Assembly: GCF_019139535.1 (NCBI RefSeq)
Contig: NZ_CP077073.1
Coordinates: 5,463,655-5,527,654 of the forward strand
DNA length: 64,000 nucleotides
Direction: 5' to 3'
Source: Pseudomonas muyukensis
Lineage (GTDB): Bacteria; Pseudomonadota; Gammaproteobacteria; Pseudomonadales; Pseudomonadaceae
Position numbers and translations under genes: made by a program. The number at the start of each line of letters is the position of its first letter. Position 1 is the first letter of the stretch. Under the pieces are notes generated by a model. It worked only from the letters and a program-made list of their open reading frames with translations. It had not been told where the DNA came from and made no database searches. This document shows positions 4,613 to 24,293 of this stretch, one piece after another.

Positions 4613-4675
4613 ATTCAAAGCGCTTAGCTGATCTCCGATGCTGTGCTCCCGATTTCTTTCTGGAGCCCGCACGCC

Positions 4676-5035
4676 ATGATGCGTCCCGACGCTAAAGTCG
4701 AAAAAGTCTATCTCTACCCCAAGCCAGTCGACTTCCGAAAGTCCATTGACGGTCTGGCCGCACTGGTTGAACTGGATATCAAAGTGGCGGTGTTCGACCC
4801 CGTGCTCTTCGTGTTTCTCAACAAAACGCGAAACCGCGTGAAGATCCTGTATTGGGAGCGAAACGGCTTCTGCCTCTGGCTCAAGCGTCTCGACTCGGAA
4901 CGCTTCAAAACATCGCCAGACCCCACCGACGAGGCCATTGTCCTGACCGTCCAGGAACTCAATTGGCTACTCGACGGCTTTGACCTCTGGCGTAACCGCC
5001 CACATCAAGTTCTGACGCCTCGCTACGTCGCCTGA
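4676..5035 (+). CDS. tnpB: IS66-family accessory protein TnpB
   Basis: This 119-residue protein has the hallmark TnpB signature KVYLYPKPVDFRKSIDGLAA near the N-terminus, then VFLNKTRNRVKILYWERNGF and a C-terminal LLDGFDLWR. The start at 4676 (ATGATGCGTCCC) follows a TGGAG box about 11 bases upstream. The longer in-frame start at 4643 lacks both a ribosome binding site and family similarity. TnpB is required with TnpC for IS66 transposition, although its biochemical role is not settled. It ends 18 bp before tnpC and looks full length. Confidence 0.92.
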   Translation: MMRPDAKVEKVYLYPKPVDFRKSIDGLAALVELDIKVAVFDPVLFVFLNKTRNRVKILYWERNGFCLWLKRLDSERFKTSPDPTDEAIVLTVQELNWLLDGFDLWRNRPHQVLTPRYVA

Positions 5036-5053
5036 TCCAGTATAATCCGCGGC

Positions 5054-6586
5054 ATGATTTCCATGCCCGACACCCTCCCTGACGATCCGGTTTTGCTCAA
5101 GCAACTGCTTGAGCAGATGATCAATGAGCGCGCGTCTGATAAGGGCAAGATCGTTCATCTGGAAGAAGAGGTGGCGCTGTTACGCCAGCGGTTGTTTGGC
5201 CGCAAGACCGAACAGACCAGCGATTCGGCTACGCCGCAACTCCCTCTGTTTGACGAAGCAGAAAGCCTGGCAGAACCGGCCGACGAGGCTTCGGAAGAAG
5301 AAGTTGTTGCACCAGGCAAACGCCGTGGCAAACGCAAGCCGCTGCCCAATGATCTGCCGCGTGTCGAGGTCATTCATGAACTGCCTGAGCATGAACTGAC
5401 GTGTGCATGCGGCTGCCGCAAGCATGCCATTGGCGAAGAAGTCAGCGAGCAGCTTGAAATCGTCCCGATGCAAATTCGGGTCATCAAGCACATCCGCAAG
5501 GTTTATGGTTGCCGCGACTGCGAGTCAGCGCCGGTGACTGCGGATAAACCCGCTCAGATGATCGAAAAAAGCATGGCCAGCCCCAGCGTGCTGGCGATGT
5601 TGCTGACCACCAAATACGTGGACGGCCTGCCACTTCATCGTTTCGAGAAAGTGCTCGGACGCCACGGCATCGATATCTCGCGTCAAACCCTGGCACGTTG
5701 GGTCATCCAATGCGGCGAGCACTTTCAGCCGCTGCTGAACCTGATGCGCGACAGCCTGTTGAATAGCCGCATCATTCATTGCGATGAAACTCGAGTCCAG
5801 GTTCTGAAAGAGCCTGATCGAGAAGCCAGTAGCCAATCCTGGATGTGGGTACAAACCGGCGGCCCGCCTGACAGGCCGGTGATTCTTTTTGATTACTCCA
5901 CCAGCCGAGCGCAGGAGGTACCGACTCGCCTGCTGGATGGGTATCGCGGCTATGTGATGACCGACGATTATGCTGGCTATAACACCCTCGGCGCGCAGGA
6001 AGGGGTCGAGCGCCTGGGCTGCTGGGCCCATGCGCGGCGTAAGTTCGTCGAAGCACAAAAAGTACAACCCAAGGGCAAGACCGGACGCGCTGACATCGCG
6101 CTGAACCTGATCAACAAGCTCTATGGTGTCGAGCGCGACTTGAAGGACAGCAGTGATGAAGATCGTAAGGCTGCCCGTATGGAGCGCAGCGTGCTATTGC
6201 TGAGTCAGCTGAAAAGCTGGGTAGAGAAAACGCAGCCTCAGGTGACGACGCAGAATGCGCTGGGCAAGGCCATCGGCTATCTGGCCAGCAACTGGAGCAA
6301 GTTGGAGCGCTACGTCGAGCATGGCTACTTGCCGATCGACAACAACGCTGCCGAGCGCGCCATTCGCCCGTTTGTCATCGGGAGAAAGAACGGGCTCTTC
6401 AGTGACACGCCAAAAGGCGCCACTGCCAGCGCACAGCTTTACAGCCTGGTCGAAACGGCCAAAGCCAACGGCCAGGAGCCCTATGCGTGGCTGCGCCACG
6501 CACTGGAGCGCCTGCCGCAAGCGTCATCAGTTGAAGATTACGAAGCCCTGCTGCCGTGGAACTGTTCGCCGCGATCACCTAGCTGA
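5054..6586 (+). CDS. tnpC: IS66-family DDE transposase TnpC
   Basis: This 510-residue transposase catalyses cutting and joining of the element's ends. In order: an N-terminal coiled-coil/leucine-zipper segment (about residues 10-55, ending in RLFGRKTEQ), a zinc-binding [17 protein letters not shown] block with a later GCRDC, and a DDE catalytic core. The core residues are D244 ([11 protein letters not shown]), D304 or D305 (MTDDYAGYN) and E434 ([11 protein letters not shown]). The C-terminal LPHAL-like domain ([11 protein letters not shown]) is also present. The frame is intact, so the copy may be active. It lies 18 bp downstream of tnpB. Confidence 0.95.
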
Positions 6587-8141: not shown

Positions 8142-8581
8142 GAGGCTTTCAGCGTGCAGATGAGCGTATAAGGAAGCTATACACCACGCATGAGCAGCCA
8201 TGCTTGCTCGACCACACGTGGGAGTAAATTCGCCTGCGACATTACTCGATTCGAACCGAGCGTGTCTATTGCAGGTGGGTTACGTTGCGCGGCAGGAAAA
8301 GGTCCGTTTAGGTTGAGGCAGCTCATACGAATTTCGTAGTGTGTGCCTCCACCTTCACCAGTACTTAGCACCAGGGGTCTTCTGCTTTGATCCTGACCGT
8401 CAGCTTCTGGTGGTGCAGTACCTGAGAATTAAAGCCTAAGAGTTAACTGTCACCGTCACAGTCTTAGATTAGCCCGCGCATCGTGAAATCGGGCTCTCGG
8501 TATTCCATAACAACTTTTTGAACAGCGGCTTTTCAAAAAAAATCGGGGCTTAGCAAATCAATTCTGATCACCCCGGCCCAA
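8142..8581. other. Right edge of the accessory region, no confident gene
   Basis: A minus-strand frame (8177-8371, with open codons beyond) reads plausibly as protein, for example NLNGPFPAAQRNPPAIDTLG and VVEQAWLLMRGV. It lacks a good start and I do not recognise it; it may be a decayed gene. From 8380 to 8580 I see no gene, RNA or repeat. The transition to the GC-rich core occurs close to 8580. Confidence 0.35.
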
Positions 8582-8605
8582 TAAAAAGACGCCAATTGGC
8601 GTCTT
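8582..8605 (-). terminator. Rho-independent terminator of the nine-gene operon
   Basis: AAGACGCCAATTGGCGTCTT is a perfect 20-bp palindrome. On the minus strand it is followed by TTTTTAT. It sits 14 bases after the stop of the LysE-type exporter gene, closing the operon. Confidence 0.85.
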
Positions 8606-8618
8606 CCCAACACCCCCA

Positions 8619-9245
8619 TCAATCCAACGGCTTCCTCAACAAAATATCCACCGCAAACACCCCCAACACCGCCCCAGACACCCACCGCTGTGTCCGCATC
8701 GCCGCAGGCCGGGCGGTCAGGAAGCGGCTCACCCGCGCCGCCGCCAACACAATCAACCCATTAACCGTCACCGCAATGACAATCTGCACCAACCCCAGCT
8801 GCATGTACTGCTGCAAGGTCGACCCCACCGTCGGGTCGATGAACTGCGGAATCAACGCCGAGTACATCAACGCGATCTTCGGGTTCAGCAGGTTGGTCAC
8901 CAGCCCCATGGTGAACAATTTGCGCGGCGAATGCGGCGGCAGTTCCCGTGCCTCGAAAGGCGAGGCGCCGCGGACCATGTTCCAGGCCAGGTAACCCAGG
9001 TAGAAGGCGCCGGCAATGCGCACCACGTCATACGCCACCGGCACGGCCTTGAACAGCGCCGACAGGCCAAGCCCGGAGGCCACCAGGTAGCAGATGAACC
9101 CCAGCGCCACGCCGGCCAGGGAGATCATCCCGGCCAGGCGGCCCTGGGAAATCGCCCGGGATGTCAGGTAGACCATGTTCGGGCCGGGGGTCAAGACCAT
9201 GCCCAGGGCGATGATCGCCACACCTATCAAATTCTCCAACGGCAT
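8619..9245 (-). CDS. LysE/RhtB-family amino-acid exporter
   Basis: This 208-residue inner-membrane protein has about six hydrophobic segments and the family signature GMVLTPGPNMVYLTSRAIS near the N-terminus, then LVTNLLNPKIALMY. LysE/RhtB carriers export amino acids or small amino-acid-like compounds, usually by proton antiport. I prefer ATG 9245 (MPLENLIG, preceded by GGAG) to the upstream ATG at 9311, which would add a non-hydrophobic, low-similarity leader. It is the last gene of a long minus-strand operon, 99 bp after the second ATP-grasp gene and before a strong terminator. In this setting it probably exports the operon's product. Confidence 0.85.
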   Translation of the reverse strand: MPLENLIGVAIIALGMVLTPGPNMVYLTSRAISQGRLAGMISLAGVALGFICYLVASGLGLSALFKAVPVAYDVVRIAGAFYLGYLAWNMVRGASPFEARELPPHSPRKLFTMGLVTNLLNPKIALMYSALIPQFIDPTVGSTLQQYMQLGLVQIVIAVTVNGLIVLAAARVSRFLTARPAAMRTQRWVSGAVLGVFAVDILLRKPLD

Positions 9246-9344
9246 CTCAACATGCTCCTTCGCATGGCTGGGTGGCCCAACGGCGCTGCAAGGCAGCGCC
9301 GCGGCCGGCATCGTTCAATGTAGCCGGGGCGCGCGGCGCGGCCC

Positions 9345-10544
9345 TCATGCTTGCAGGCTCCAGGCGTGGGACAACTGCGCGAAGATCGACTCGACATCGC
9401 GCTCCAGCGCCTGGCGGTCGAAGCTGCGCAAGCGCAGCCGGGTCTTCGCCCCTTCATAAACACCGCTGGCACTGCGCTGCAGCTCCTGGGGCTGCGACCA
9501 ATACAGCGTGCCCAGGCCTGCGTCGGGCGTGCTGGCACGCCGGCCAATCACCCAGGCGCCGCGCTCGCCATGCAGCGGGCGGCCGTCGCGGCTGCGGCTG
9601 CGCGCCTGCTCGCGGTAGCGGCTGGACGCCTCGGTCTGCAACTCCCAGGCGATGCCCACCAGGTCGATGTCGCGCACCTCGCGCCAAAGGAAGGGGATTT
9701 CCGCGCCGCCGACGCGGGCGCCGATCTCGAGAAAGCGCAAGGTATCGCCGTCAGCGAACAGCTCCAGGTGAAAGACAATCTCGCGCCCTGGCGCGAACGC
9801 CGCCAGCAGCTCGGCAACGCGGCTGGCGATGCGGCGCTCGTCATCGCCTTCGGCAAGCTCGATGCTGCCCAACGGGCTGTCCGGGCCGAAGTCGGCGCAG
9901 CTGTTCACGTAGCGCGATGCGGTCAGCACCACCACCTGCTCGCCATCCCACCAGCCATCCACATGCAAAATCGGCGCGGCGCAGAACACTTGGACCATCA
10001 TCGGCTCTGGCTGCGCGTCCTGCAGCAGCGCCAGGTCCTGCGCCTGGCGCAGGATCCTGACGCCGCGGCTGGCGGTGCCGAAGCGGGGCTTGAGCACCAG
10101 TGGGTAGCCGTGGCGTTGCAGCAGCTGGCGCACCCCCTGCGCGTCGTCGGCGGCCACCGCCGGCAGCACGGCGATGGCCGTCTGCCGGTTGGCCACCGCG
10201 AGCATGCTGAGCTTGTCGCGAAAGCGCTCGACCCAGGCCGGCGCGTCGCCGTGGATGGCCCAGCGCTCGCGGATCGCGGCGGCATTGAGCAGGTCGCCTT
10301 CGTTCAACGCCACCACGCGCTCGGGCACGCCGTACTGGGCGATCACTCGCCCAGCCTCGGCCATGACCGCGTCGGCATCGTCCAGCGAGGCCAGCGTCGA
10401 GCTCGACGCCAGCCGCGCGGCCGGCAGCGAGCCGAGTGACTCGGGCGTGCAGATCGCCCGGATCACCCTGCCAGCGGGCAGCTCATACTCGTCGTAGAGT
10501 GCCTGGCGCCCTACCCAGCGATGCAGGCAGAGCACGTAGCTCAT
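9345..10544 (-). CDS. ATP-grasp ligase B (amino-acid/peptide ligase type)
   Basis: This 399-residue protein has an N-terminal pre-grasp region and a central ATP-grasp fold. The nucleotide-binding strand/loop is LVLKPRFGTASRGVRIL, and the C-terminal metal/ATP site includes FLEIGARVGGAEIPFL. Enzymes of this group activate a carboxylate as acyl-phosphate and join it to an amine, typically forming dipeptides or amides. The start overlaps the stop of ligase A by 4 bp (ATGA), so the two are co-translated. Its sequence differs markedly from ligase A, suggesting a different substrate or a second ligation step. Substrate unknown. Confidence 0.8.
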   Translation of the reverse strand: MSYVLCLHRWVGRQALYDEYELPAGRVIRAICTPESLGSLPAARLASSSTLASLDDADAVMAEAGRVIAQYGVPERVVALNEGDLLNAAAIRERWAIHGDAPAWVERFRDKLSMLAVANRQTAIAVLPAVAADDAQGVRQLLQRHGYPLVLKPRFGTASRGVRILRQAQDLALLQDAQPEPMMVQVFCAAPILHVDGWWDGEQVVVLTASRYVNSCADFGPDSPLGSIELAEGDDERRIASRVAELLAAFAPGREIVFHLELFADGDTLRFLEIGARVGGAEIPFLWREVRDIDLVGIAWELQTEASSRYREQARSRSRDGRPLHGERGAWVIGRRASTPDAGLGTLYWSQPQELQRSASGVYEGAKTRLRLRSFDRQALERDVESIFAQLSHAWSLQA

Positions 10545-11797
10545 GCCTGGGGCTCCTGGATGAAGTGCACGGCGGCGACCAGTTCATCGCCGATGCGCAC
10601 CGCGTCCTCGCGCGAGGTGCCGGTGGCCAGCACATAACCGGAAACGCAGTCGGCCACGGTGTCCAGCGGCGGGATCACATCGCCTTCGTGCTTCTGGATG
10701 ACCACCGCGCGCTCGGCCTCGCCCAGCTCGAACAGGAACGGCAGGAACACCAGCGGCGTCTCGCCTGGGCGGGTGTGGCGCACGTCGACGTCAGGCTTGA
10801 GGTCGAGCTCGACCTTGCGCACCTTGCCCGGGGTCGGCACGAAGAACTGGATCGCGGCGCCGGCCTTGGGCTCTGGCGACGCCAGCGGCAGTTCGTCGAT
10901 GCCCAGCGGCACGGTGAGGAACATGCGGTTCAGGTCCAGGCCGAAGGCGCGGCGCACCAGTTCCGGGGCGCCGGAGCCGGCCAGGCGGGCATGGGACTCG
11001 AGCACGCGCGGGCCCTTGGCGGTGAGGACGAACTCGCTGTGCGACGGGCCCTCTTCCAGCTCCACCGCATCGAGCAGGCGGCAGGTCATGTCCTTGAGCT
11101 CGGTGAGCCACTGCTTGGCGTCGGTGCTGGGGGTGCTGACTTCCCACTCGACGTACTTGTCGTTCATGCGGTACTGCGAGTAGCCGATCGGCAGGTGGCG
11201 GCGCTTGAAGGAGAACGAGTCGACGCTGACCACCGGGCCGTCCAGGTACTCTTCGATGATGATGTGGCGCACCTCGGCCTCCTTGAGCGCCTGCCAGGCA
11301 CGGGTGGCGCTGGCGGCATCCTCGCAGGGGTGGATGTGCAGGCTGGCGACGCCTTCGGCCGGCTTGAGCACCGAGCGGCCATGCTCGGCGACGAACGCGA
11401 TGGCGTCCTCGGCGCAAGTGACGTGGCGGAAGGCCACCGGGCTCAGGTCGTGCTTGGCCAGCAGCTCGCGCATGGCCACCTTGTCCTTGAGCAGGTGCGC
11501 GGTCTTGTAGGAAACACCGGTCAGCTTGAAGTGGTCGACCACCTTGCCGGTGGACTCGCCGGCCACCTCGGTGGTGGTGATGATGCGCTCGAACGGGCGC
11601 TCGCGGTGCAGCGGCTCGAGCACCTTGATGATTGCCTCGGCATCGTCGATGCGGGCATGCACCACGCGCTCGCAATGGCTGACGATCTCCTGCTCGTAGT
11701 CACCATCCTGGTGCACCAGCACGACATCGATGCCCATTTCCTTGGCCCCGTGGATAGGCGCCGGACGGCCACCGATAACTGCAATACGCTTGTTCAT
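10541..11797 (-). CDS. ATP-grasp ligase A (L-amino-acid ligase type)
   Basis: This 418-residue protein opens with a Rossmann-like pre-ATP-grasp segment (KRIAVIGGRPAPIHGAKEMG). The ATP-grasp core follows: SVLKPAEGVASLHI, HIIIEEYLDGPVVSVDSF and the metal-binding RVLESHARLAGSGAPE. The C-terminal domain resembles the BacD/YwfE-type L-amino-acid ligases used for dipeptide natural products. It is 39 bp downstream of the 2-oxoglutarate oxygenase gene and overlaps ligase B by 4 bp. It likely couples a modified amino acid to a partner using ATP; the substrates cannot be read from sequence. Confidence 0.82.
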   Translation of the reverse strand: MNKRIAVIGGRPAPIHGAKEMGIDVVLVHQDGDYEQEIVSHCERVVHARIDDAEAIIKVLEPLHRERPFERIITTTEVAGESTGKVVDHFKLTGVSYKTAHLLKDKVAMRELLAKHDLSPVAFRHVTCAEDAIAFVAEHGRSVLKPAEGVASLHIHPCEDAASATRAWQALKEAEVRHIIIEEYLDGPVVSVDSFSFKRRHLPIGYSQYRMNDKYVEWEVSTPSTDAKQWLTELKDMTCRLLDAVELEEGPSHSEFVLTAKGPRVLESHARLAGSGAPELVRRAFGLDLNRMFLTVPLGIDELPLASPEPKAGAAIQFFVPTPGKVRKVELDLKPDVDVRHTRPGETPLVFLPFLFELGEAERAVVIQKHEGDVIPPLDTVADCVSGYVLATGTSREDAVRIGDELVAAVHFIQEPQA

Positions 11798-11836
11798 GCA
11801 AACTCCTTGTTCGTCGTGAGATTTGTCAGCAAAGCA

Positions 11837-12793
11837 TCAGCTGCCGTAGACCCGGCGCAACCAGCGCGCCTGGCCATCGGGCAGGGGTTTGAACGCCTTG
11901 CGCCGATGCAGCACGCGGGCGTTCTTGAAAATGAAGAAGTCACCGGGCTGCAGCACCAGCTCTATGCCCTGGATATCCTTGAGCACCTGGCGCAGCAGGC
12001 TGAGCGCGGCCTGGGCGGGCGCGGCGCTGGCGCTGACGATGCCGTCGTCGAAGCGCAGCCGATAGCCGTTGGCGCCACGTTCGAGAATCGGCATCACCCG
12101 TTGCTCGCCGTCATAGCCTTCGTTGGAGGCCGGCGCGCCGAAAGCGAAGGCCGACTGGCTGAGTTCCTCGATGGCCCAGGCCGGCAGGCATGACAGCACA
12201 TGGTCGACACAGACGATGTCGGTGGAAGCCTGCTCGTGGTTACGCACGGCGATGAACGCCAGGTAGTTGGGCACGCTGCGGGCGACATCGCTGGCCTGGT
12301 CGTCGAATGGCCAGTTGGGGTTGTCGGTATGCCACGAGAAATCCACATCCGCGCCCCAGGAACTGGTGGTGCCTGCCGCTTGCGCCACCGGCACCACATT
12401 GCGCACCAGCTTGCCGTGGTTCTCGTACTCCACGGCGTGGGAGCGCACCCCCAGCAGGTTGAGCATGCCGAAATGCAGCAGGTCGAAATCCAGCACGCAC
12501 TGGGCATCGGGCAAAAACCCGTTGCTCGGCGACGGCACCGCGGTGGACAGCCCAATGCCGCGCAACAGCAGGGCCTTGTGGCTGCACCCGGCAAACCCGC
12601 GGATGCTCTCGACCAGGGTCGGGCCAAGCAGCGAGCGCAGCCAGTCGGCACCCACCGCGCCGACGTTGTCGGCGCGGTGCGGCATGCTGGCCAGGCGTTC
12701 GCGGCAGGCGGCCAGCCCGGACAGGTCGGCATCGCTCACGGTCAGCACCTGGACCACCGAGGCCTGGTGCACATCCAGCGCCATGAGGCTCAT
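11837..12793 (-). CDS. TauD/clavaminate-synthase-like Fe(II)/2-oxoglutarate oxygenase
   Basis: This 318-residue protein has the facial triad H155-x-D157 (DFSWHTDNPNW) and a distal H296 (NARVLHRRKAF), with an arginine near residue 310 suited to bind 2-oxoglutarate. Family members hydroxylate, desaturate or cyclise amino acids and related compounds. The carboxylate in HxD makes hydroxylation likelier than halogenation. ATG 12793 (MSLMALDV) overlaps the stop of the 38-residue ORF (ATGA), so it is preferred over the upstream start at 12913. A hydroxyl made here could be the acceptor for the neighbouring carbamoyltransferase (inference). Confidence 0.85.
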   Translation of the reverse strand: MSLMALDVHQASVVQVLTVSDADLSGLAACRERLASMPHRADNVGAVGADWLRSLLGPTLVESIRGFAGCSHKALLLRGIGLSTAVPSPSNGFLPDAQCVLDFDLLHFGMLNLLGVRSHAVEYENHGKLVRNVVPVAQAAGTTSSWGADVDFSWHTDNPNWPFDDQASDVARSVPNYLAFIAVRNHEQASTDIVCVDHVLSCLPAWAIEELSQSAFAFGAPASNEGYDGEQRVMPILERGANGYRLRFDDGIVSASAAPAQAALSLLRQVLKDIQGIELVLQPGDFFIFKNARVLHRRKAFKPLPDGQARWLRRVYGS

Positions 12794-12906
12794 GATTGGC
12801 GCTTCAGGTAGGACGTGACCTTGGGATCCGGACGATGGGCAAACCGCGCGCTGCGCCGGAACAACACACCGAGAGGCAAGATCAGGTAGAGCAGAACGTA
12901 TTCCAT
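12790..12906 (-). CDS. 38-residue membrane peptide of the carbamoyltransferase operon
   Basis: ATG at 12906 follows a strong AGGGAAGG box with a 6-base spacer and encodes MEYVLLYLILPLGVLFRRSA and 18 more residues ending in YLKRQS. One hydrophobic helix (residues 3-16) is followed by an arginine/lysine-rich tail, giving a predicted inner-membrane protein with the tail inside. Its TGA overlaps the oxygenase ATG, so translation is coupled, and the gap to the carbamoyltransferase stop is 28 bp. In saxitoxin-type loci the small proteins SxtJ and SxtK accompany O-carbamoyltransferases; this one occupies a similar place but I cannot show homology. Confidence 0.65.
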   Translation of the reverse strand: MEYVLLYLILPLGVLFRRSARFAHRPDPKVTSYLKRQS

Positions 12907-12934
12907 GTTGCACCTTCCCTAGTAGATGAAATGT

Positions 12935-14773
12935 TCAGTCCAGCGGCACGGTCTCGCGCCAGTCGACCGCTTCCTCGAACCGTGGCTGCTGGGCTTTCTC
13001 GAGGTAGAAATCGCCGATGGCCAATACGTCCATGTTGGTGCGCATGAAGCAGCGGTAGGCCTCGAACGGTGTGTTGACGATGGGCTCGCCACGCACGTTG
13101 AACGAGGTGTTGACCAGCGCCGGGCACCCGGTGCGCTGGTGGAAGCGTTCGAGCAAGGCGCGAAAACGCGGGTTGCGCTCGCTGTCGACGGTTTGCACCC
13201 GCGCCGAGAAGTCGACATGGGTGATCGCCGGCAGGTCGCTGCGCACCACCTTGAGCAGGTCGATGCCGGTCAACTGCGCCTGGTGCCCGGGCACGCTCTT
13301 GCGAATCGCCTGGGCCACCGGCGACACCACCAGCATGTAGGGGCTCTCCTCGACGATGTCGAAGCAGTCGGCCGCGCGCTCGGCCAGCACCACCGGGGCG
13401 AACGGGCGGAACGACTCGCGGAACTTGATGCGCAGGTTCATCGTCGACTGGGTGTCGGAGCGCCGTGGGTCACCGAGGATCGAGCGGTTGCCCAGCGAGC
13501 GCGGACCAAACTCCATGCGCCCCTGGAACCAGCCCACCACGCCGCCTTCCTCCATGCTCAGGATCACCCGGTGGTCGAATTCCTCCTGGCTCAGCTGCTG
13601 GTACACGGCGCCGCATTCATCCAGTTCGGCGCGGATCTGCTCGGCGCTGTACTGTGGCCCGAGCAGCGAGCCGCTCATGCCATCGACCGCTTCGGGCAGT
13701 TCGCGCTGGCTGACCTGGCGCTGCCGGCGATCGGTGAGCAACGCCGCCCCCAGCGAACCACCGGCATCACCGGCAGCCGGTTGAATCCACAGGCGCTCGA
13801 AGGTCCGCTCGCGAGACACCACGCCGTTGGCCACGCAGTTCAGGGCCACGCCACCGGCCATGCACAGGTTGCGCTCGCCGGTAAGCTCGCGGGCGGTCTT
13901 GGCCAGGCGCGAAACGATCAGCTCGGTGACTTTCTGCACCGAGGCCGCGAGGTCGAACTCACGCTCGGTCAGCGGCGCCTCGGGCAGACGCCGCGGGCCG
14001 CCGAACAAGCGCACGAAGGCTTCGCCGGTCATCACTTCACCGCGGATAAACTCGAACTTGGTCCAGTCCAGGCGGAAGCTGCCGTCGGGCTTCACATCGA
14101 TCAGCTCGGCGAGGATGCGCTCGGCGTACACCGGCTTGCCATAGGGCGCCAGGCCCATGAGCTTGTACTCGCCGGAGTCGACCTTGAAGCCGCAGAAGTA
14201 GGTGAACGCCGAATAGAGCAGGCCAAGCGAATGCGGGAACGAAAGCTCCGCGACTTTCTCCAGGCCCTCGGGCTTGCCGTGCCAGAGCGTGGTGGTGGCC
14301 CATTCGCCGACGCTGTCGATGCACAGGATCGCCGCCCGTTCGAAGGGGCTGGGGAAAAAGGCCGAGGCGGCATGGGAGGCATGGTGGCCATGCACCTCGA
14401 TGCGTCGGTCGGCGCGGTCGCCCATCTCCTTGAGGTGGCGCAGCACTTCTCGGTCCATGCGCCGCTTGGTGGTGAGCCAGTCGGCCAGTACCGGGGCGTA
14501 GGTGCGCACCGCCGACAGGCCAGCGACCGCCGCGGTGGACAGCACCCGGCGAAATTTCAGGGCCGGGTCCTCGTAGTAGGCCACGTGGTCGACCTGGTCC
14601 AGGCGCAAGCCGGCCTCGGCCAGCACGAAGGCAATGGCCTGGCGCGGGAACCCTGGGTCGTGGCGGATGCGGCTGAAGCGTTCTTCCTGGGCCGCGGCGA
14701 CGATGCGGCCATCGATCACCAGCGTGGCCGCGCTGTCGTGGTAGAAGGCGGAGATGCCGAGTGTGCAGGTCAT
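12935..14773 (-). CDS. O-carbamoyltransferase (NodU/CmcH/TobZ family)
   Basis: This 612-residue, full-length enzyme transfers a carbamoyl group from carbamoyl phosphate, via carbamoyl-AMP, to a hydroxyl. The N-terminal Kae1-like domain has LGISAFYHDSAATLV and HGHHASHAASAFFPSPF (metal-binding histidines). The C-terminal YrdC-like/Carbam_trans_C part has FQGRMEFGPRSLGNRSIL and CPALVNTSFNVRGEPIV. ATG 14773 overlaps the upstream stop (ATGA); the frame stays open upstream but only as an out-of-gene extension. Known relatives decorate Nod factors, cephamycin, novobiocin, tobramycin and saxitoxin. Here the acceptor is presumably the product of the neighbouring oxygenases. Confidence 0.92.
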   Translation of the reverse strand: MTCTLGISAFYHDSAATLVIDGRIVAAAQEERFSRIRHDPGFPRQAIAFVLAEAGLRLDQVDHVAYYEDPALKFRRVLSTAAVAGLSAVRTYAPVLADWLTTKRRMDREVLRHLKEMGDRADRRIEVHGHHASHAASAFFPSPFERAAILCIDSVGEWATTTLWHGKPEGLEKVAELSFPHSLGLLYSAFTYFCGFKVDSGEYKLMGLAPYGKPVYAERILAELIDVKPDGSFRLDWTKFEFIRGEVMTGEAFVRLFGGPRRLPEAPLTEREFDLAASVQKVTELIVSRLAKTARELTGERNLCMAGGVALNCVANGVVSRERTFERLWIQPAAGDAGGSLGAALLTDRRQRQVSQRELPEAVDGMSGSLLGPQYSAEQIRAELDECGAVYQQLSQEEFDHRVILSMEEGGVVGWFQGRMEFGPRSLGNRSILGDPRRSDTQSTMNLRIKFRESFRPFAPVVLAERAADCFDIVEESPYMLVVSPVAQAIRKSVPGHQAQLTGIDLLKVVRSDLPAITHVDFSARVQTVDSERNPRFRALLERFHQRTGCPALVNTSFNVRGEPIVNTPFEAYRCFMRTNMDVLAIGDFYLEKAQQPRFEEAVDWRETVPLD

Positions 14774-16875
14774 AGCAGCGACCTCATGGTTTCCTTGAAC
14801 TTGTCCAGCATGGTGTCCTCCCTGGGTGGATTGAGCGCGACGTATCCGGTACGGATACGCGCCCATAGTTCGTCGCGGTCGCGTGTAGAAAATGCGCTGA
14901 GGTAAGCGTCCAGGCTGGCGGCAGCCCAGGCGCTGTGGCCGGTGGAAATGTTGTCGATGGCGTTGTGCAGGTCGACGAACAGGGTCGGGTAGCCATAGGC
15001 GACCAACGCCTTGTGGGTGCGCCGGTAGCCACCGCCCACGCCGGACAACTCCATCGCCAGGTTGAGCCCGAGGATTTCCGGGCAGTAGCTCTGGGGATAG
15101 CGGCCGATGGCCAACCAGAACACCGGCAGCTCGAAGTCCTCGTCGGCGAAACACTCGGCAGCGGCGTAGCCTGGCGCGGCGGTGGCCGGTAGTTCGCCAT
15201 GCACCGCCCGCAGCAACTGGCGGTAGATCACGGGGTGGTTCTGTGCCTCGAGGCCGTTGCCCAGCTCGTCGTACAGGGTCTCGAACAGGCGGCTGCCAAA
15301 GGCCGAGGCCGCCAAAGACGGATGGGCGAAACCGGCCAGCCAGGCGCCGTCGATCATGGTCAGCGGCGCCAGGGCGACGATGTCGGCAATCACCTCTTCG
15401 CGGCTGGGCAAGTCCTGGGGCTGCTCCAGCGCCTGGTTGGACAACGCATGCTGCTGTTGCAGCCACTCGCGCAGCACGCCCGGGGCCCAGTGTTCGGGTA
15501 GCGGGCAGCGGCCCTTGGCCACTCCGCGGGCGGCCTTGACCAGCCAGCGGTTGACGTAGTGCCGGGCATGGTTCTGCTCGGCCGGGGTCAGCTCGACGTG
15601 CAGCAAGCGCGGGTAGGCTTGGCGCGGTGCCAGGCGAGTCGCCAGGATCGGCGCCTCGACCTCCTCGCCCAGCAGCCCGGCCAGCAGGCCGTCATCCTTC
15701 CACAGCGCGCGTGCCGGCTGTGGCTGAGGTTGTTCGGCGTAGGGCAGCCCGGCAATCCAGCGCTCGAGGATGGCCAGGTCGTCGCGGCTGAAGATGCGGA
15801 ACATCTTGCCTCGCGGCGATACCAGCGTGGTCAGCAACGGGCTGCCTTGCGGGTTGCCGGCGCGGACATAGGCGCTGGCGGCCAGATGCTCGAGAAACCG
15901 CAGCGAGTCATCCTCCTCCAGCAGCGAACGCATCGGCACTTTGTTCAAGCGGGTTTTTTCGTGGTACTGGCAGGCATCCGGGCGTCGCCGGCTGATCAGG
16001 TCACGGGCGGCCTCGCGGGGGTCGAGCCAGCGCTCCAGCACGGCGAGCAGCGCGCTGTTCGCCGACTCGACCTGCCAGCGCGCCCAGCAATACCCCTGGC
16101 GCATGCCTTGCTGGGCCGCGGGCCCGGCCTGGGCGAGGTACTCGCGTACCGCGGCCTCGGCCAGCGCCGCCAGGTCTTGCGCCGAACCGGACGGGTCGCG
16201 GCGCAGGTCGAGCAGGCGCTCGCGCTCAGGCTGCCCATCGGCGATGAAGGCGAACATCGGCAACACGCCACAGTGGCGCAGGTAGAGGTTGGCCCCGAGG
16301 ATCTGCGGCAACAGCGACTCGGGAAAATGCCCGAGCAGCACCAGCATCGCCGCCAGGTTGAACGCGCCGTCGCAGACGCCGGAATCGTCACCGATGGCCT
16401 GGGGATCCTCGCCGGCATCCGACGGCGCCAGCTCACGCATCAGCTCGCGATAACGCTGGATACGACTGGCGCCGGGCCGGCCACCGCCAACATCCAGCGC
16501 ATGGACCTGCAACATGGCCATGGCATAGCGCGCTTCGTTGTTCCAGCTGGCGCAGACGGCGTGGATCAGGTGCTGGCTGCCAAGCAACAGCGGCGCAGCC
16601 TCACGCACGGCCTTGGCGCGCAGCAGCTGGCCCTCGTGCTCGCCAAGACGCTGCTGCAGCCGCTGCCAGCCCTGGCCGATGGCCTGCAGGCGCTGGGCGG
16701 CGTCCGTGGCCAGGCCGGCCAGCTGCTGCGGGCAGGCGAAGTCGGTCTCGACCTGCGCGGCGCCGGGCGCGGCGGCGAGGCAGGCGCGCAGGCTGGCGGC
16801 TGAACACATCCGCCGGGCCTGGTCACCCGACTCGGCGCCGAGCAGGCTGGAAAATAACTGCCGATGGCTGTTCAT
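14770..16875 (-). CDS. Large heme-oxygenase-like diiron oxidase, apparently two-domain
   Basis: This 701-residue protein has a C-terminal half that fits the heme-oxygenase-like diiron oxidase (HDO) superfamily, PF14518-like. Candidate ligands are E537 and H547 (DELGNGLEAQNH, E-x9-H as in SznF), E609 (or E600), and H637, D641 and H647 (LHNAIDNISTGHSAW). The N-terminal half contains a similar but ligand-poor block (SLLPQILGANLYLRHCGVLP against YCPEILGLNLAMELSGVGGG), suggesting a duplicated, degenerate domain. Known HDOs perform N-oxygenation, olefin-forming decarboxylation or C-C cleavage of amino acids. It overlaps the 31-codon ORF by 1 bp and the carbamoyltransferase by 4 bp. Reaction unknown. 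Confidence 0.7.
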   Translation of the reverse strand: MNSHRQLFSSLLGAESGDQARRMCSAASLRACLAAAPGAAQVETDFACPQQLAGLATDAAQRLQAIGQGWQRLQQRLGEHEGQLLRAKAVREAAPLLLGSQHLIHAVCASWNNEARYAMAMLQVHALDVGGGRPGASRIQRYRELMRELAPSDAGEDPQAIGDDSGVCDGAFNLAAMLVLLGHFPESLLPQILGANLYLRHCGVLPMFAFIADGQPERERLLDLRRDPSGSAQDLAALAEAAVREYLAQAGPAAQQGMRQGYCWARWQVESANSALLAVLERWLDPREAARDLISRRRPDACQYHEKTRLNKVPMRSLLEEDDSLRFLEHLAASAYVRAGNPQGSPLLTTLVSPRGKMFRIFSRDDLAILERWIAGLPYAEQPQPQPARALWKDDGLLAGLLGEEVEAPILATRLAPRQAYPRLLHVELTPAEQNHARHYVNRWLVKAARGVAKGRCPLPEHWAPGVLREWLQQQHALSNQALEQPQDLPSREEVIADIVALAPLTMIDGAWLAGFAHPSLAASAFGSRLFETLYDELGNGLEAQNHPVIYRQLLRAVHGELPATAAPGYAAAECFADEDFELPVFWLAIGRYPQSYCPEILGLNLAMELSGVGGGYRRTHKALVAYGYPTLFVDLHNAIDNISTGHSAWAAASLDAYLSAFSTRDRDELWARIRTGYVALNPPREDTMLDKFKETMRSLL

Positions 16876-16970
16876 CAGTGCATTGGATAAATAGAGGAAT
16901 TGTTCTTTTTCTTGGACTTCTTCTTGCGTTTGAAGAGCGATCCGAGGGCCTGGCGAATACGTTTGAACAT
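16875..16970 (-). CDS. 31-residue polybasic peptide, possible precursor or scaffold peptide
   Basis: ATG at 16970 follows GAGGAAA and encodes MFKRIRQALGSLFKRKKKSK and 11 more residues (KKNNSSIYPMH). It has 11 Lys/Arg and no acidic residue. An amphipathic head (residues 1-13) leads into a lysine-rich stretch and a neutral tail. Its TGA shares one base with the start of the diiron oxidase gene (TGATG). Dedicated ribosome binding site and exact coupling argue for a real gene. It could be a membrane-docking peptide, an antimicrobial peptide, or a ribosomal precursor modified by the ATP-grasp and oxidase enzymes. None of these is shown. Confidence 0.6.
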   Translation of the reverse strand: MFKRIRQALGSLFKRKKKSKKKNNSSIYPMH

Positions 16971-16987
16971 GGTCTTTTCCTCACATG

Positions 16988-18037
16988 TCATTGCAGATGG
17001 TGATGAATGGCCTGCGCCACTACATCGTTTCCAAGGTCGGTAAAGTGCGCGCGGTCGACAAAGAACCATTCATCCGCCGGGCGCGCTTGCAACGCATCGA
17101 CCAAGTTGCTGAACGGGATGCCCAGGGCATGGCAGCCGCTGGCGAGTTTGTCCGCATACTGGGCAGCCACCGCCGGGTCGGAAATATCACCGTACAAGTG
17201 TTGCCACGTCCCCAGCCGAGAAATACGGTCCAGTTCGTCAAACAACTTCTGTTCTTCGGCGCAGGGCGAACGCACCCAGGTGGCCAAGGGTTGCATGACG
17301 AAGGAAAGTTCCGCACCCAGCGACTGCGCCAGGCACTTCCAGGTTTTCAGGCAGTTCAGCGTATCGGCCGTGGCCCGCGCCAGGGTCTGCGCCACAGGCG
17401 GCACCGCGGTGGTTTCATTGGGCCACTTGGGAAGTTTTGCCGGTGGCAGTTTCGCCCCATGCTCCTCGGCGATCTCGTCGAACTTCTCGTAATAGTCGCC
17501 GCAGAAATAAAACGCTGGCAGTTCACCGCGGACGAACTCTGGCAGGCGCGCCATCACCAGGGTGTTGAAGCCCCCCATGACCACGATCCGGTGGATTTTC
17601 GGCAGCCGGTGCATATGCAGCATGAACAGCGTCAGCTCTTGGGTGGCGTTGAAGCAGTGGCCGGCAAAATTCAGCCAGGGGGTGCCTTGCGGGTCATGCG
17701 CCGCCAGCCGGCTCACCACCGAGGTGGCATCGCTGGAAGCCCCGTACCCCAAGGCCGGCGACGCGCCGACAAGAATGTTTACCGGGCCATCGGCACAGGC
17801 TTGGAGCTGGCCGGCACTGATCGCCCGGCCTTGCTTGTCGTGGGCGAAACGAAAGCCCAGGCGGTCGGTGTTGATCGACGCCGATTGATAGCCCGCGGCA
17901 TTGAAGCTCATGACATAGGGCAGGTATTGCGAACGGCCGCGATTGGCGAAACGGTCGTAATCGAGCATTTGCGGCGTAAGTTTTACGCGCTCGAGCGAAG
18001 GATCATCAAGCGCAACGGGTTTGCGACTCTTGAACAT
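16988..18037 (-). CDS. SGNH/GDSL-like hydrolase, first gene of the operon
   Basis: This 349-residue protein has an SGNH-type nucleophile block (NILVGASPALGYGASSD), a central GGFNTLVMARLPEFVRG and the C-terminal D-x2-H dyad (FVDRAHFTDLGND). SGNH enzymes are esterases, lipases or acyltransferases. They recur next to O-carbamoyltransferases in several biosynthetic loci. There is no signal peptide, so it is likely cytoplasmic. I choose ATG 18037 (MFKSRKPV) with GGAG upstream rather than the TTG at 18043. The gene leads the nine-gene operon, 17 bp before the polybasic peptide gene. It may hydrolyse or transfer an acyl group during assembly or release. Confidence 0.65.
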   Translation of the reverse strand: MFKSRKPVALDDPSLERVKLTPQMLDYDRFANRGRSQYLPYVMSFNAAGYQSASINTDRLGFRFAHDKQGRAISAGQLQACADGPVNILVGASPALGYGASSDATSVVSRLAAHDPQGTPWLNFAGHCFNATQELTLFMLHMHRLPKIHRIVVMGGFNTLVMARLPEFVRGELPAFYFCGDYYEKFDEIAEEHGAKLPPAKLPKWPNETTAVPPVAQTLARATADTLNCLKTWKCLAQSLGAELSFVMQPLATWVRSPCAEEQKLFDELDRISRLGTWQHLYGDISDPAVAAQYADKLASGCHALGIPFSNLVDALQARPADEWFFVDRAHFTDLGNDVVAQAIHHHLQ

Positions 18038-18085
18038 GGTCAAGCCACTCCATTGGATTACAATTTATTCCATTAACGGCGCTGC

Positions 18086-18114
18086 CTTTATTACGAGCAA
18101 ACAATAGCCGTCAA
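18086..18114 (-). promoter_or_regulatory. Candidate sigma-70 promoter of the nine-gene operon
   Basis: On the minus strand TTGACG (18114-18109) is followed after exactly 17 bp by ATAAAG (18091-18086), about 48 bp before the SGNH gene start. The surrounding DNA is AT-rich. A candidate from consensus reading only. Confidence 0.45.
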
Positions 18115-18694
18115 AGTATCGATCTACTTTTTTCGAGCACCCAGTACTTGCCAACCCTGCCCCAGCGGGCACGGCAGACTAAGTTTCAGGCACGAGGCGG
18201 CCCCACGTCTTTTTGTGAAAAGTCAGTGGTCGCGCGATAAATGGGCAGGATTAACTAAAAGGCAGGGTGTGGCGAAAAGGAGGCGTGGTGAGCGGCTATC
18301 CGTGCAAGGAAATCCATACTGGAAGCAGTTGTTTTTATTTTCAGGTGCTGCCAAAGACATCCAAGCATTATCATTATCCCTTGTTATATTTTCTTCGGTT
18401 CCAACCGAAGCGACGCTCAGGCCACCGATTTTTGAGGAGCCTGCGGCAGCTGTCAATACGTGCAAAGTCGCATTTCATCGATTAAATAAAAAGTTCACGT
18501 TCAGTGCACAGGCGTAACCACTCAAATGAATAACATTGCGCTTGCGAAACACACCATTGATTAGCTAAAGCGCTCATGTAACATTCAGATGACATCACGC
18601 CTGCGGCAAAAGCATCAGTTCGCCACTATTGAATACGCCTGGCCTCGATGCTTGGCCACCGCCGTGACCCGCCCTTGCGAAGGAGCCCACCAGG
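18115..18694. other. 580-bp AT-rich spacer between the operon and a divergent hydrolase gene
   Basis: No gene with a credible start or family feature is seen on either strand. Overlapping frames at 18215-18517 (+) and 18223-18465 (-) look accidental. The DNA is clearly more AT-rich than its surroundings (for example around 18360-18420 and 18480-18560). It may hold control elements for the operon or be the left-over boundary of a horizontally acquired segment. Confidence 0.4.
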
Positions 18695-19690
18695 ATGCGC
18701 GTCAGCTGCACCGTAAAGACCTGGGGCATGGCCCTGCTGCTGAGCCTGTTCAGCAGCGTCACCTTGGCGGCGGCGCAAGTGCTGCAGCTTGGCCGGGCCC
18801 AACCCTACGACTTGCTTGCCTACAGCAATGCCGACCCGCTGCGCCCCGAGCTGGCCGAACGTGCCGTGGTGATCGTCCACGGCGTGCGCCGCAATGCCCA
18901 GGACTACTACGCTGGCGCGCAGCAGCTGCTGGCCAACGCCGGGCTCGGCGGCTCGGCCGTGTTGCTGATCGCGCCCAACTTCCTCAGCGCCGACGATTCG
19001 CCAGCCACCGAGGCCATGCCGCTATGGCCCAAGGACCAGTGGATGCAAGGCAGCGAATCGAGCGCCGGTCGCCGCGGCATCGCCACCTTCAGCGTGCTCG
19101 ACGACCTGCTGGCCTACCTGGCCGACAGCAGGCGCTTCCCGCGTCTCAAGGAGGTCGTGCTGATCGGCCACTCGGCCGGTGCCCAGCTCATGCAGCGCTA
19201 CGCCGTGCTGGGCAAGGCGGTCGCGGGCCTGCCGGTGCGCTATGTGATCTCCAGCCCGTCCTCGTACCTGTACCTGGACGCCAATCGGCCAACGCCCACG
19301 GGCTTCGCAGCGCTACCGGGCAAGCAGTGCCCGGGCTACAACCAGTATCGCTATGGCCTGGAGCAGCCTCCCGCCTACCTGGTCAGCCAAGGCCTGGATG
19401 CCAAGCAGTTGTTTCGCCGCTATGCGGCGCGCAACGTGACCTACCTGGTAGGTGCACGCGATACCCATGCTGCCAGCCGCATCATGGACCACAGCTGTGG
19501 GGCGCAGGCGCAGGGGCGCAACCGCGTCGAGCGCCAGCTCGGCTACCTGCGTTACGAGGGGTTTCTTTCGCGCGCCTGGGCTGTCGACATCGCTCATCGG
19601 CAGTTCGTGGTGCCCGGGGTCGGGCACAATGCCACGCACCTGCTGACCAGCCCGCAGGTGGCTCGCTGGCTGTTTCCCGGCGAGCGTTAG
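18695..19690 (+). CDS. Secreted alpha/beta hydrolase
   Basis: This 331-residue protein has a signal peptide (MRVSCTVKTWGMALLLSLFS, cleaved near ...TLAAA) and an alpha/beta-hydrolase fold. The oxyanion region is VVIVHGVRRNAQD, the nucleophile elbow is VLIGHSAGAQ and the catalytic histidine lies in VPGVGHNATHL. Start at 18695 follows AAGGAG. It probably acts in the periplasm or outside the cell on an ester or amide; the substrate is unknown. It stands alone between the AT-rich spacer and a repeat cluster. Transcription is divergent from the nine-gene operon, and a functional link to it cannot be excluded. Confidence 0.75.
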   Translation: MRVSCTVKTWGMALLLSLFSSVTLAAAQVLQLGRAQPYDLLAYSNADPLRPELAERAVVIVHGVRRNAQDYYAGAQQLLANAGLGGSAVLLIAPNFLSADDSPATEAMPLWPKDQWMQGSESSAGRRGIATFSVLDDLLAYLADSRRFPRLKEVVLIGHSAGAQLMQRYAVLGKAVAGLPVRYVISSPSSYLYLDANRPTPTGFAALPGKQCPGYNQYRYGLEQPPAYLVSQGLDAKQLFRRYAARNVTYLVGARDTHAASRIMDHSCGAQAQGRNRVERQLGYLRYEGFLSRAWAVDIAHRQFVVPGVGHNATHLLTSPQVARWLFPGER

Positions 19691-19735
19691 GGGGCCAGAT
19701 AGAAGGCCCCACCTGCGGCCTCGGTCCGTATGCTG

Positions 19736-19878
19736 GCGAAGCAGGCGACGCGGTGCCTGGCACCGGCTGCGCCGGTGTTCGCCGGCAAGCCGGCTCCTAC
19801 AACGCGTACGGCCTGCAACACCTGTAGGAGCCAGCCTTGCTGGCGAACCAGGCGACACGGTGGATGGCACCGGCGCAG
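19736..19878. repeat. REP-type palindromic repeat cluster, family A
   Basis: Several copies of the inverted units centred on gccggcaagccggc and gccagccttgctggc, separated by caccggctgcgccggtg. They lie between convergent genes (hydrolase and gabP), where such elements may help end transcription. Confidence 0.85.
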
Positions 19879-19880
19879 GG

Positions 19881-21266
19881 TCATGCTTGGGCGGCCACGC
19901 TACGGCCGTGGCCGCGGCTGGTGACGATGCCGAGGAACGAAATCACGATCGCCAGGCTCAGGGTGGCGGTCACCTCGGCGCGGTGCTCCTCGGTGAACAT
20001 CATCACCGCCAAGGCGCCGCTGATGAACAGGATCACCGCCCAGGTCAGGTAGGGGAACAGCCACATGCGAAACTTCAGGTTGGCGTTCTCGCGCTCCAGG
20101 CGCCCACGCATGCGCAGCTGCGAAATGGCGATCACCAGGTACACCAGCAAGGCGATGGCGCCGGAACTGGCCAGCAGGAACTCGAACACGCCCTTGGGCG
20201 CGAAGTAGTTGAGGATGGCGATGGCCGCGCCGATCAGCGTGCTGCCGAACACCGCCGCGCGCGGTACGCCAACCTTGGAGGTGTGCTTGAGCATGGCCGG
20301 GGCGTCACCACGCTTGGCCAGCGAATACATCATCCGCGAGGCGATGTAGATCGATGAGTTCATGCAGCTGGTCACCGCGATCAGCACCACGAAGTCGACC
20401 ATCAACGCGGCGTTGGGGATGTTCATGATTTCCAGCGCCCGCTGGTACGAACCCACCACGGCCAGCTGCGGATCGTTCCACGGCACCACCGAAATGATCA
20501 CGAAGATCGACAGGATGTAGAAGGTGCTGATGCGCCAGATCACCGAGCGGGTGGCCTTGGCGATGTTGCGCGCCGGGTCGCTGGACTCGGACGCCGCGAT
20601 GGTCACCGCCTCGGTGCCGATGAAGCTGAACATCACGGTGATGAACGCCCCCACCACCGCCGACCAACCCTTGGGCGCGAAGCCGCCGTGCTCATCCATC
20701 AAGCTGCTCAGGCCGCTGACCTCGCGCGCGGGCAGCCAGCCCATCAGCGCGGCGAAGCCCAGCCCGATGAAGCCGAGGATCGCGGTGACCTTGAGGATGG
20801 CGAACCAGAACTCGAACTCGCCGTACTTGGCCACGCTGAACAAGTTGGTGCAGGCCAGCAGCAGCACCGAGCCCAAGGCGAAGATCCAGCTGTCCACCTG
20901 GGGGAACCAGGCATTGAGCACATGCCCGGCGGCCAGCGCCTCGATGGGGATCACCAGCACCCAGAACCACCAGTACAACCAGCCGATGGTGTAGCCGGCC
21001 CAGCGGCCGATGGCCTGGTCGGCATAGGTGGAAAACGAACCGGTATCGGGGTGGGCCACGGCCATTTCGCCGAGCATGCGCATCACCAGCACCACCAGGG
21101 TGCCGGCCACGAAATAGGAAAGAATGGTGGCGGGCCCGGCGGCCGCGATAGCGTGGCCGGAGCCTACGAAAAGTCCGGCACCGATGATGCCGGCGATCGA
21201 CAGCATCGTTACATGACGTGGCTTGAAACCTTGTGCAAGGTTGCCATCAGTTCCCACGGTGTTCAT
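19881..21266 (-). CDS. gabP: GABA permease, APC-family amino-acid transporter
   Basis: This 461-residue transporter has about 12 membrane segments and closely resembles E. coli GabP from memory. Shared stretches include RHVTMLSIAGIIGAGLFVGS, DTGSFSTYADQAIGRWAGYT, IGWLYWWFWVLVIP and SSGAIALLVYLVIAISQLRMR. It should import 4-aminobutyrate (and perhaps related omega-amino acids) with protons across the inner membrane. No gabD/gabT genes are nearby. Start ATG 21266 follows AAAGAGAA. A related APC permease for another amino acid is possible. Confidence 0.75.
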   Translation of the reverse strand: MNTVGTDGNLAQGFKPRHVTMLSIAGIIGAGLFVGSGHAIAAAGPATILSYFVAGTLVVLVMRMLGEMAVAHPDTGSFSTYADQAIGRWAGYTIGWLYWWFWVLVIPIEALAAGHVLNAWFPQVDSWIFALGSVLLLACTNLFSVAKYGEFEFWFAILKVTAILGFIGLGFAALMGWLPAREVSGLSSLMDEHGGFAPKGWSAVVGAFITVMFSFIGTEAVTIAASESSDPARNIAKATRSVIWRISTFYILSIFVIISVVPWNDPQLAVVGSYQRALEIMNIPNAALMVDFVVLIAVTSCMNSSIYIASRMMYSLAKRGDAPAMLKHTSKVGVPRAAVFGSTLIGAAIAILNYFAPKGVFEFLLASSGAIALLVYLVIAISQLRMRGRLERENANLKFRMWLFPYLTWAVILFISGALAVMMFTEEHRAEVTATLSLAIVISFLGIVTSRGHGRSVAAQA

Positions 21267-21693
21267 TGATATTGTTCTCTTTTTGCGGACACAAGGACGG
21301 GATGGGCAGGCGTAGGCGAAACAGTATCTCCTTGAAAAGCAATAAGAATGACACGTCGCTCACGCTCTGTTGTTGACCTTGTTCACGCTTTCACAGAGCA
21401 ACGCACCGGCGATTTCGGGGTTCATTTAAGCCCCCCAGGCGGTGGGAAAATTGTTCGAGAACGTCCCATAGGTGCGCGATCACGACACCCCATGCTTGAT
21501 CGCGGCAGATGTCGCGTTCGGCTTGTCCATTTGCGTCAATCCGGGTCGCGCCAGGGGTTCCCTCGTCAAGAATGGCTGGCGATGAGCACGCTGCCGGCAC
21601 TGTCTCGGGGCAAGCCCGCCGCACAAAGCCTTACAGTTTTACAAACGCGCGGCAGGTAACGTTCATCCCACTTCACCGACAGCAAGGGATGCC
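21267..21693. other. 427-bp intergenic region between divergent gabP and acetyltransferase genes
   Basis: No credible gene was found; the plus frame at 21348-21659 lacks a ribosome binding site and protein-like features. The region must carry the promoters of both divergent genes. Confidence 0.5.
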
Positions 21694-22587: not shown

Positions 22588-22596
22588 AGCGCTCCA

Positions 22597-22682
22597 CCTG
22601 TAGGAGCCAGCCTTGCTGGCGAACCAGGCGCCGCGGTGTCTGCCACCCGCCGCGCCGGTGTTCGCGGCCCGCTCCTGCAGGC
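22597..22682. repeat. REP-type repeat, family A
   Basis: Contains tgtaggagccagccttgctg followed by gcgccggtgttcgcggc. Located between convergent genes. Confidence 0.8.
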
Positions 22683-24275: not shown

Positions 24276-24293
24276 CGCCAGGAAAACCCAGTG

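Follow-up and report, generated by a model that had tools for sequence, protein, structure and literature searches.

What does the nine-gene operon on the minus strand (positions 8619-18043) of the DNA analysed here specify, and does it belong to any described family of biosynthetic clusters? The stretch, hereafter the window, is the final 64 kb of the single-contig, 5.53-Mb genome of Pseudomonas muyukensis. In order of transcription, the operon encodes an SGNH hydrolase (A), a lysine-rich microprotein (B), a tandem haem-oxygenase-like diiron oxidase (HDO; C), an O-carbamoyltransferase (F), a membrane-type microprotein (G), an Fe(II)/2-oxoglutarate oxygenase (2OG), two ATP-grasp ligases (L1 and L2), and a LysE-type exporter. 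The original prediction, made from the sequence alone, treated these genes as an unassigned operon and knew of no characterised cluster with this combination. Judged by homology and gene order, the operon is a gvg-like cluster, representing a conserved subtype of that family, and is distinct from the cluster for the natural herbicide 4-formylaminooxyvinylglycine (FVG) proper. The earlier interpretation stands in part: the single operon and the likely type of product were retained, but not the unassigned status.

FVG is described as the product of the gvg cluster in P. fluorescens WH6 (PMC8067088). Homology combined with the published gene table matches A, B, C, F, and G of the window to gvgA, gvgB, gvgC, gvgF, and gvgG, in the same order; A, C, and F share ~35 to 58% identity with the proteins of gvg-type loci. 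The joint occurrence of gvgA, gvgB, gvgC, and gvgF homologues, as found in the window, defines the gvg-like clusters; at least eight variants are reported by Davis et al. 2021 (PMC8064604, Fig. 5), of which almost all are left without characterisation. We rejected the notion of an unassigned cluster, which overlooks that five of the nine genes correspond to the FVG core, that knockout phenotypes of this core have been published, and that gvg-like clusters were already in print. WH6 knockouts of gvgA, gvgB, gvgC, gvgF, gvgG, and gvgH are listed as losing antibacterial/herbicidal activity (PMC8067088, Table 1), and gvgB and gvgG are reported to be absent from the GenBank annotation of this strain (PMC8067088). 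In Pantoea ananatis BRT175, insertions in carB and the carbamoyltransferase gene are reported to impair an antibiotic (PMC4010436), later established as FVG (PMC6039020). From these insertions, and from the activity lost in the gvgB and gvgG knockouts, it follows that carbamoyl phosphate and the two microproteins are important to the sister pathway.

Besides the order of the core, the operon shares LysE export with the FVG clusters of WH6 and BRT175 (PNP-1) and, as already predicted, contains no nonribosomal peptide synthetase (NRPS) or polyketide synthase gene. It differs from them by its 2OG oxygenase and two ATP-grasp ligases, by a B protein ending in H instead of F, and by the lack of any counterpart in the 64-kb window of gvgR (MocR-type regulator), gvgI (formyltransferase), or gvgD. 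A search confined to the window also found no counterpart of the gvgH aminotransferase, save a 24% match to a different gene at 55-56 kb, ~37 kb away. With gvgH, gvgI, and gvgR all lacking a window counterpart, this is not an FVG cluster proper, and FVG production as such was rejected. The gvg-like clusters of PMC8064604 likewise combine gvgA, gvgB, gvgC, and gvgF with varying accessory genes and are predicted there to make other products, perhaps amino acids; neither "ATP-grasp" nor "dioxygenase" occurs in the main text of that paper. A seven-gene cluster of Pantoea agglomerans Eh318 is described as having pnp1B, pnp1C, and pnp1D homologues (A, C, and F), an ATP-grasp protein, and a transporter, but with a sulfotransferase and an aminotransferase where the window has the 2OG oxygenase and the second ligase (PMC4010436). 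No product of the nine-gene subtype was met among the papers listed from the open-licence literature on the enzyme set, gvg, aldgamycin/aldgarose, or HDOs.

Conservation of the operon was assessed by searching 398 genomes of the genus (397 plus the source) with the 701-aa oxidase, which returned a long and close match in 22 genomes, the source included. Gene-neighbourhood comparison found the identical nine genes in identical order, both microproteins included, in 7 of the 397 other genomes (L034-L040), with protein identities of 67 to 94% (as low as 55% for the G microprotein). This recurrence argues that the set is not a chance assembly and bears out the earlier expectation that its genes co-occur elsewhere. 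Loci of the gvg type were found in nine further genomes (L041-L049); genes resembling gvgR and gvgH occur in every one of them and a formyltransferase in eight, the ninth stopping at a contig end. The remaining loci show a C-LysE-F-A-B arrangement (four genomes; L051-L054) or another one (L050).

We extended the comparison to 80 named loci, the best of 117 relatives from one pattern scan, which partly overlap with the genus loci; co-occurrence was counted with score thresholds that we set ourselves. The 2OG, L1, and L2 genes all accompany the core in 25 of the 80, in hosts that include Pseudomonas, Reinekea, a Mariprofundaceae metagenome-assembled genome, Streptomyces, Nocardiopsis, and Herbidospora. 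Together with the recurrence of the nine genes in seven genomes, this supports a conserved subtype. The gvgH-type aminotransferase is found in none of the 27 named loci with a 2OG gene. Therefore, the 2OG-ligase set and the gvgH aminotransferase seem to be alternatives to each other in the tailoring built around a common core.

Within this core, the B microprotein has a cationic N-terminal part followed by a C-terminal IYP[M/L]x tail, a motif that is kept in most relatives and across several bacterial phyla. A strict pattern recovered the tail in 72 of the 80 named loci and a relaxed one in 78, the latter being the informative count, since the patterns demand Y and P (the codon set also I) and the invariance of these letters is partly built in. 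SIYPMF is the ending in 65 loci, the others being SIYPMH (5), SIYPMY (2), TIYPMF (3), TIYPMN (1), and EIYPLF (2). The two loci without a tail peptide (L104 and L108) also lack A and F nearby. Over 84 distinct B tails, the I, Y, and P codons vary synonymously, which argues for conservation at the peptide level. In the nine-gene type of Pseudomonas, B terminates in H or Y (H in the window), and in L050-L054 it terminates in R; the idea that a final His distinguishes the 2OG subtype was rejected, as the 2OG loci of Streptomyces, Reinekea, and Mariprofundaceae end in F. No Pfam family, DUF5989 included, matched B at an E value of 0.01, and no paper on the tail motif was found in the open-licence literature. 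The G microprotein combines a membrane helix with a conserved segment (for example, R..DP..TYW or AWD); as judged by eye, 73 of 84 F genes are followed by a G gene (7 had none and 4 were spurious picks).

A parallel to B is provided by DUF5989 (PF19451), a microprotein family for which we met no paper in the open-licence literature; of the 299 genomes searched across the phylum, 54 gave a match (52 above the cut-off). Like B, DUF5989 proteins lie beside a carbamoyltransferase, in this case of a neighbouring clade, and end in an IY-x-x-F type tail (FIYTLF or similar); unlike B, they have a hydrophobic, membrane-type middle. A search of 199 genus genomes, the source included, yielded no DUF5989, but neither did its controls give matches. 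An F-related carbamoyltransferase occurs in 24 of 25 short DUF5989 loci and in all 20 longer ones; unlike the window, none of the latter has an oxidase of the C family, and SGNH was weakly detected in 4. B itself carries an IYxxF-type tail beside a carbamoyltransferase of the wider clade of F, although the window copy ends in H. With a B-tail profile, FIYTLF outscored all 9851 background C-termini, in a test that was post hoc because DUF5989 came into consideration only once the tail had been seen. This parallel led us to reject the idea that B is a tail peptide specific to HDO clusters.

The link between tail and carbamoyltransferase was further examined in 50 close and 20 distant carbamoyltransferases that we selected from a scan of the 299 genomes. 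A tail-bearing microprotein neighbours 44 of the 50 close enzymes (40 by pattern, 2 with FLYTLF tails, and 2 of the window type, i.e., the window and G083, with B beyond the fetched stretch) versus none of the 20 distant ones, 4 of which lie on stretches shortened by contig ends. Therefore, B is probably a carbamoyltransferase partner. In the tree, the 89 core carbamoyltransferases (86 distinct sequences) form one clade with support of 1.0 and the 40 DUF5989-side enzymes (33 distinct; L233, L238, and L241 without a visible tail-bearing neighbour) another with support of 0.635; together they exclude the 20 distant enzymes (support, 0.924).

These data can be accommodated in a gvg-like pathway composed of the core, the 2OG oxygenase, two ligases, and LysE, which we consider an evenly balanced proposition when taken as a whole. 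In the scheme that we infer, with regard to step order, substrate, product, and the roles of B and G, the 2OG oxygenase would hydroxylate a free or ligated amino acid, and F would carbamoylate a hydroxyl with the help of B, through its C-terminal tail, and of the membrane microprotein G. C would then oxidise the carbamoyl nitrogen or an adjacent position, A would transfer or cleave an acyl group to leave an N-O or carbonate-type group, and L1 and L2 would add one or two further amino acids. Export would fall to LysE, and the exported compound would probably be an antimetabolite directed at enzymes that use amino acids. Oxidation of nitrogen is a preference rather than a result, since HDOs are reviewed as N-oxygenases, desaturases, and C-C cleaving enzymes (PMC13108848). 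The two ligases point to a peptide, and the likeliest product is a small one with a carbamate or N-O group. It is probably an exported amino-acid peptide that differs from FVG. The kind of product originally predicted, small and exported, with an amino acid or peptide that is carbamoylated or oxidised, is retained as probable.

Several observations pull against this scheme or against B as a partner of F. Over their full length, B and DUF5989 are not significantly alike (hhalign probability, 8%), and homology at this level was rejected. Six of the 50 close carbamoyltransferases have no tail-bearing neighbour, and Actinomadura rudentiformis (L096) has C and a tail-bearing B with neither A nor F at the locus and no close F in the assembly. 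A role in regulation has also been suggested for gvgA and gvgC (PMC8067088), and the carB and purL mutants could act via general metabolism, as framed by the authors themselves (PMC4010436). Proximity of carAB to the core may likewise be a chance of position.

The core might alternatively make a carbamate or cyclic carbonate without N-oxidation, with the HDO acting on carbon by desaturation or cleavage. Aldgarose bears a cyclic carbonate and lacks nitrogen, but FVG contains an N-O bond and is the sole compound that we know to be tied to the complete core, and we deem this alternative unlikely. It draws on the gvgA, gvgC, gvgF, and gvgG homologues reported in the aldgamycin/chalcomycin cluster (PMC8064604) and on the desaturations and C-C cleavages ascribed to HDOs (PMC13108848). 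Since the core genes are the same and a gvgI mutant is reported to still make an active precursor, postulated as aminooxyvinylglycine (PMC8067088), the operon might also make an FVG-like oxyvinylglycine that merely escapes formylation. That gvgH, which is required for FVG, is represented in the window by no more than the distant match to another gene, and never accompanies 2OG in the named loci, and that two ligases point to a peptide, makes such a product distinctly unlikely. The notion that A, B, and C are mainly regulatory, leaving F, 2OG, and the ligases as the pathway, stems from the hundreds of WH6 transcripts altered in gvgA and gvgC knockouts, for which the same authors also propose feedback by a cluster product (PMC8067088). 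Invariant candidate ligands in the C-terminal domain of C and catalytic blocks kept in A (13 aligned sequences each), along with conservation of the core across phyla beside different neighbours, render it highly improbable.

A further alternative concerns B, which could be a covalent carrier or sacrificial ribosomal peptide whose tail Ser, Thr, or Tyr is carbamoylated by F, the group being oxidised by C while bound and moved on to the substrate by A. The conserved tail with its synonymous codon variation, the cationic, leader-like part, the need for gvgB in WH6 (PMC8067088, Table 1), and the self-sacrificial HDOs CtCADD and NePabS, described as cleaving protein-derived tyrosine (PMC13108848), would all fit. 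However, among the 84 distinct tails, 4 have Thr and 2 have Glu in place of the Ser, and the similar tails of DUF5989 lie beside carbamoyltransferases with no C-family HDO in all 20 loci, so that the tail is not specific to HDO chemistry; we rate the carrier as clearly unlikely. In its boldest form, GvgB-type microproteins would be ribosomal carriers for N-O chemistry, with a carbamoyl group placed by F on the IYP[ML]x tail and oxidised there by the tandem HDO, SGNH passing the activated N-O/carbonate unit to a small molecule, the tail derived from or convergent with that of membrane-anchored DUF5989, and an entire carbamoyltransferase clade using a peptide cofactor, a proposal that strikes us as very unlikely.

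The biosynthesis of FVG is presented as unsolved, with essential microproteins that have no assigned role (PMC8067088, PMC8064604). A second, widespread subtype with other tailoring genes separates the shared A-B-C-F-G module from product-specific genes, and the role of this module thereby becomes testable by comparison. With the gvg-like family itself already known, what is new is the microprotein with its tail and the parallel to DUF5989, which suggests a very small partner, liable to be missed in annotation, for one clade of carbamoyltransferases and offers a concrete role, open to testing, for small open reading frames (ORFs) already known as essential. Were this true, it would help to account for the need for such ORFs in these pathways and would be relevant to the search for antimetabolites in Pseudomonas and actinomycetes.

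Pfam supports most of the enzyme assignments (Haem_oxygenas_2, both carbamoyltransferase domains, TauD, ATP-grasp plus LAL_C2 for L1 only, and LysE). A has no Pfam match; it is 38 to 42% identical to A of the nine gvg-type loci and keeps, in 13 aligned homologues, G-x-S-x-x-x-G and DRxH, which we take to be SGNH motifs. C belongs to the HDO family by its Haem_oxygenas_2 score (54.5 bits; cut-off, 28.9), and a PDB search with the HDO profile returned no credible relative. Its N-terminal half is homologous to its C-terminal half (hhalign probability, 99.6%; E value, 1.4e-24, in an alignment of 84 relatives that omits the window row), and comparison of the halves indicates that the family arose by internal duplication. 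In the C-terminal domain, E537, H547, E600, E609, D635, H637, D641, and H647 are invariant in 13 sequences and are candidate metal ligands, with E600 and E609 close together; the N-terminal half is a degenerate copy with no matching histidines in the alignment and most candidate ligands gone. HDOs of the N-oxygenase type (3H/4C) are expected to have an additional glutamate ligand in space. A tandem HDO of this type was not met in the accessible portion of the HDO review PMC13108848. Among PDB entries, F comes nearest to decarbamoylnovobiocin carbamoyltransferase, GdmN, and TobZ. In 23 listed sequences, the 2OG enzyme retains W-H-[T/S]-D together with the distal His and the Arg; its nearest matches are hydroxylases of arginine, lysine, and enduracididine. 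Its NCBIfam equivalog scores fall below the cut-offs for GntD (68.9 versus 345 bits) and VioC (50.3 versus 418.6 bits), indicating that it shares only the superfamily with these beta-hydroxylases. L1 qualifies as an L-amino-acid ligase by Pfam (LAL_C2, 30.5 bits; cut-off, 29.4) and is closest in the PDB to BL00235; L2, with sub-threshold ATP-grasp matches only, appears to be a divergent relative.

All nine genes were found in the order and with the overlaps originally described: TGATG at 16875 for B/C and 4-nt ATGA overlaps for C/F (14770-14773), G/2OG (12790-12793), and L1/L2 (10541-10544). Two predicted starts are less firm, as that of the SGNH gene may be a TTG upstream of the proposed ATG and that of LysE probably lies downstream of 9311. 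The predicted terminator proved to be a strong hairpin (folding z = -3.46; none of 200 shuffles equally good), although it is not among the sites listed by a consensus scan. The promoter-like site matches 10 of 12 consensus positions, with 2 sites found versus 1.3 expected in the shuffled region.

Positions, strand, and supporting evidence for the operon genes and flanking signals in the window
Feature	Position	Strand	Basis or remark
SGNH hydrolase, GvgA homologue (A)	16988..18043	-	start TTG 18043 or ATG 18037; homology, catalytic Ser and Asp-His blocks
31-aa lysine-rich microprotein, GvgB homologue (B)	16875..16970	-	cationic part and C-terminal IYPMx tail
701-aa tandem haem-oxygenase-like diiron oxidase, GvgC homologue (C)	14770..16875	-	Pfam, half-versus-half alignment
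NodU/TobZ/GdmN-type O-carbamoyltransferase, GvgF homologue (F)	12935..14773	-	Pfam, PDB search, tree
38-aa membrane-type microprotein, GvgG homologue (G)	12790..12906	-	ORF, comparison with other loci
Fe(II)/2-oxoglutarate oxygenase (2OG), VioC/OrfP/GntD/clavaminate synthase relative	11837..12793	-	HxD..H and Arg kept
ATP-grasp L-amino-acid ligase (L1)	10541..11797	-	LAL_C2 above cut-off
Second, divergent ATP-grasp ligase (L2)	9345..10544	-	sub-threshold ATP-grasp matches
LysE-type amino-acid exporter	8619..9311	-	Pfam LysE; true start probably ~9245
Rho-independent terminator hairpin and T tail	8582..8605	-	folding versus shuffles
Promoter-like site upstream of operon	18428..18456	-	consensus match only

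Pfam scans of core neighbours elsewhere revealed varied tailoring genes, encoding a short-chain dehydrogenase/reductase (adjoining the core in some loci), a thiamine diphosphate (ThDP) enzyme, a Leu/Phe-tRNA transferase, or carAB, but pointed to no known product. In 10 of the 80 named loci, genes resembling carA or carB are at most 10 kb away from the core (one member per cluster was Pfam-checked). A Leu/Phe-tRNA-protein transferase homologue follows an A-C-F core at L110:17028-17885 (the Pfam-scanned member), and L097 and L103 carry members of the same gene cluster; such loci look NRPS-like by eye. A core variant with a ThDP enzyme, a DUF6917 protein, ATP-grasp ligases, and an asparaginase II that shares its reading frame with a HAD hydrolase is present at L091:14797-17388 and in Saccharopolyspora spinosa (L107:15506-17218), the L091 members having been scanned. 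The tail-less Actinomadura loci L104 and L108 have the oxidase near an NRPS-looking gene (by eye), with carbamoyltransferase, SGNH, and B not found in the stretch.

Pseudomonas sp. RIT623 is syntenic with the operon and its upstream flank (8570-26686; 94 to 97% DNA identity), and this synteny ends at 8570, just beyond the terminator and before an IS66-like element. Long antisense ORFs overlie the C gene in the window and at some other loci. Downstream of the operon, two ORFs at 4643-6586 resemble transposon proteins, presumably TnpB and TnpC of an IS66-type transposon.

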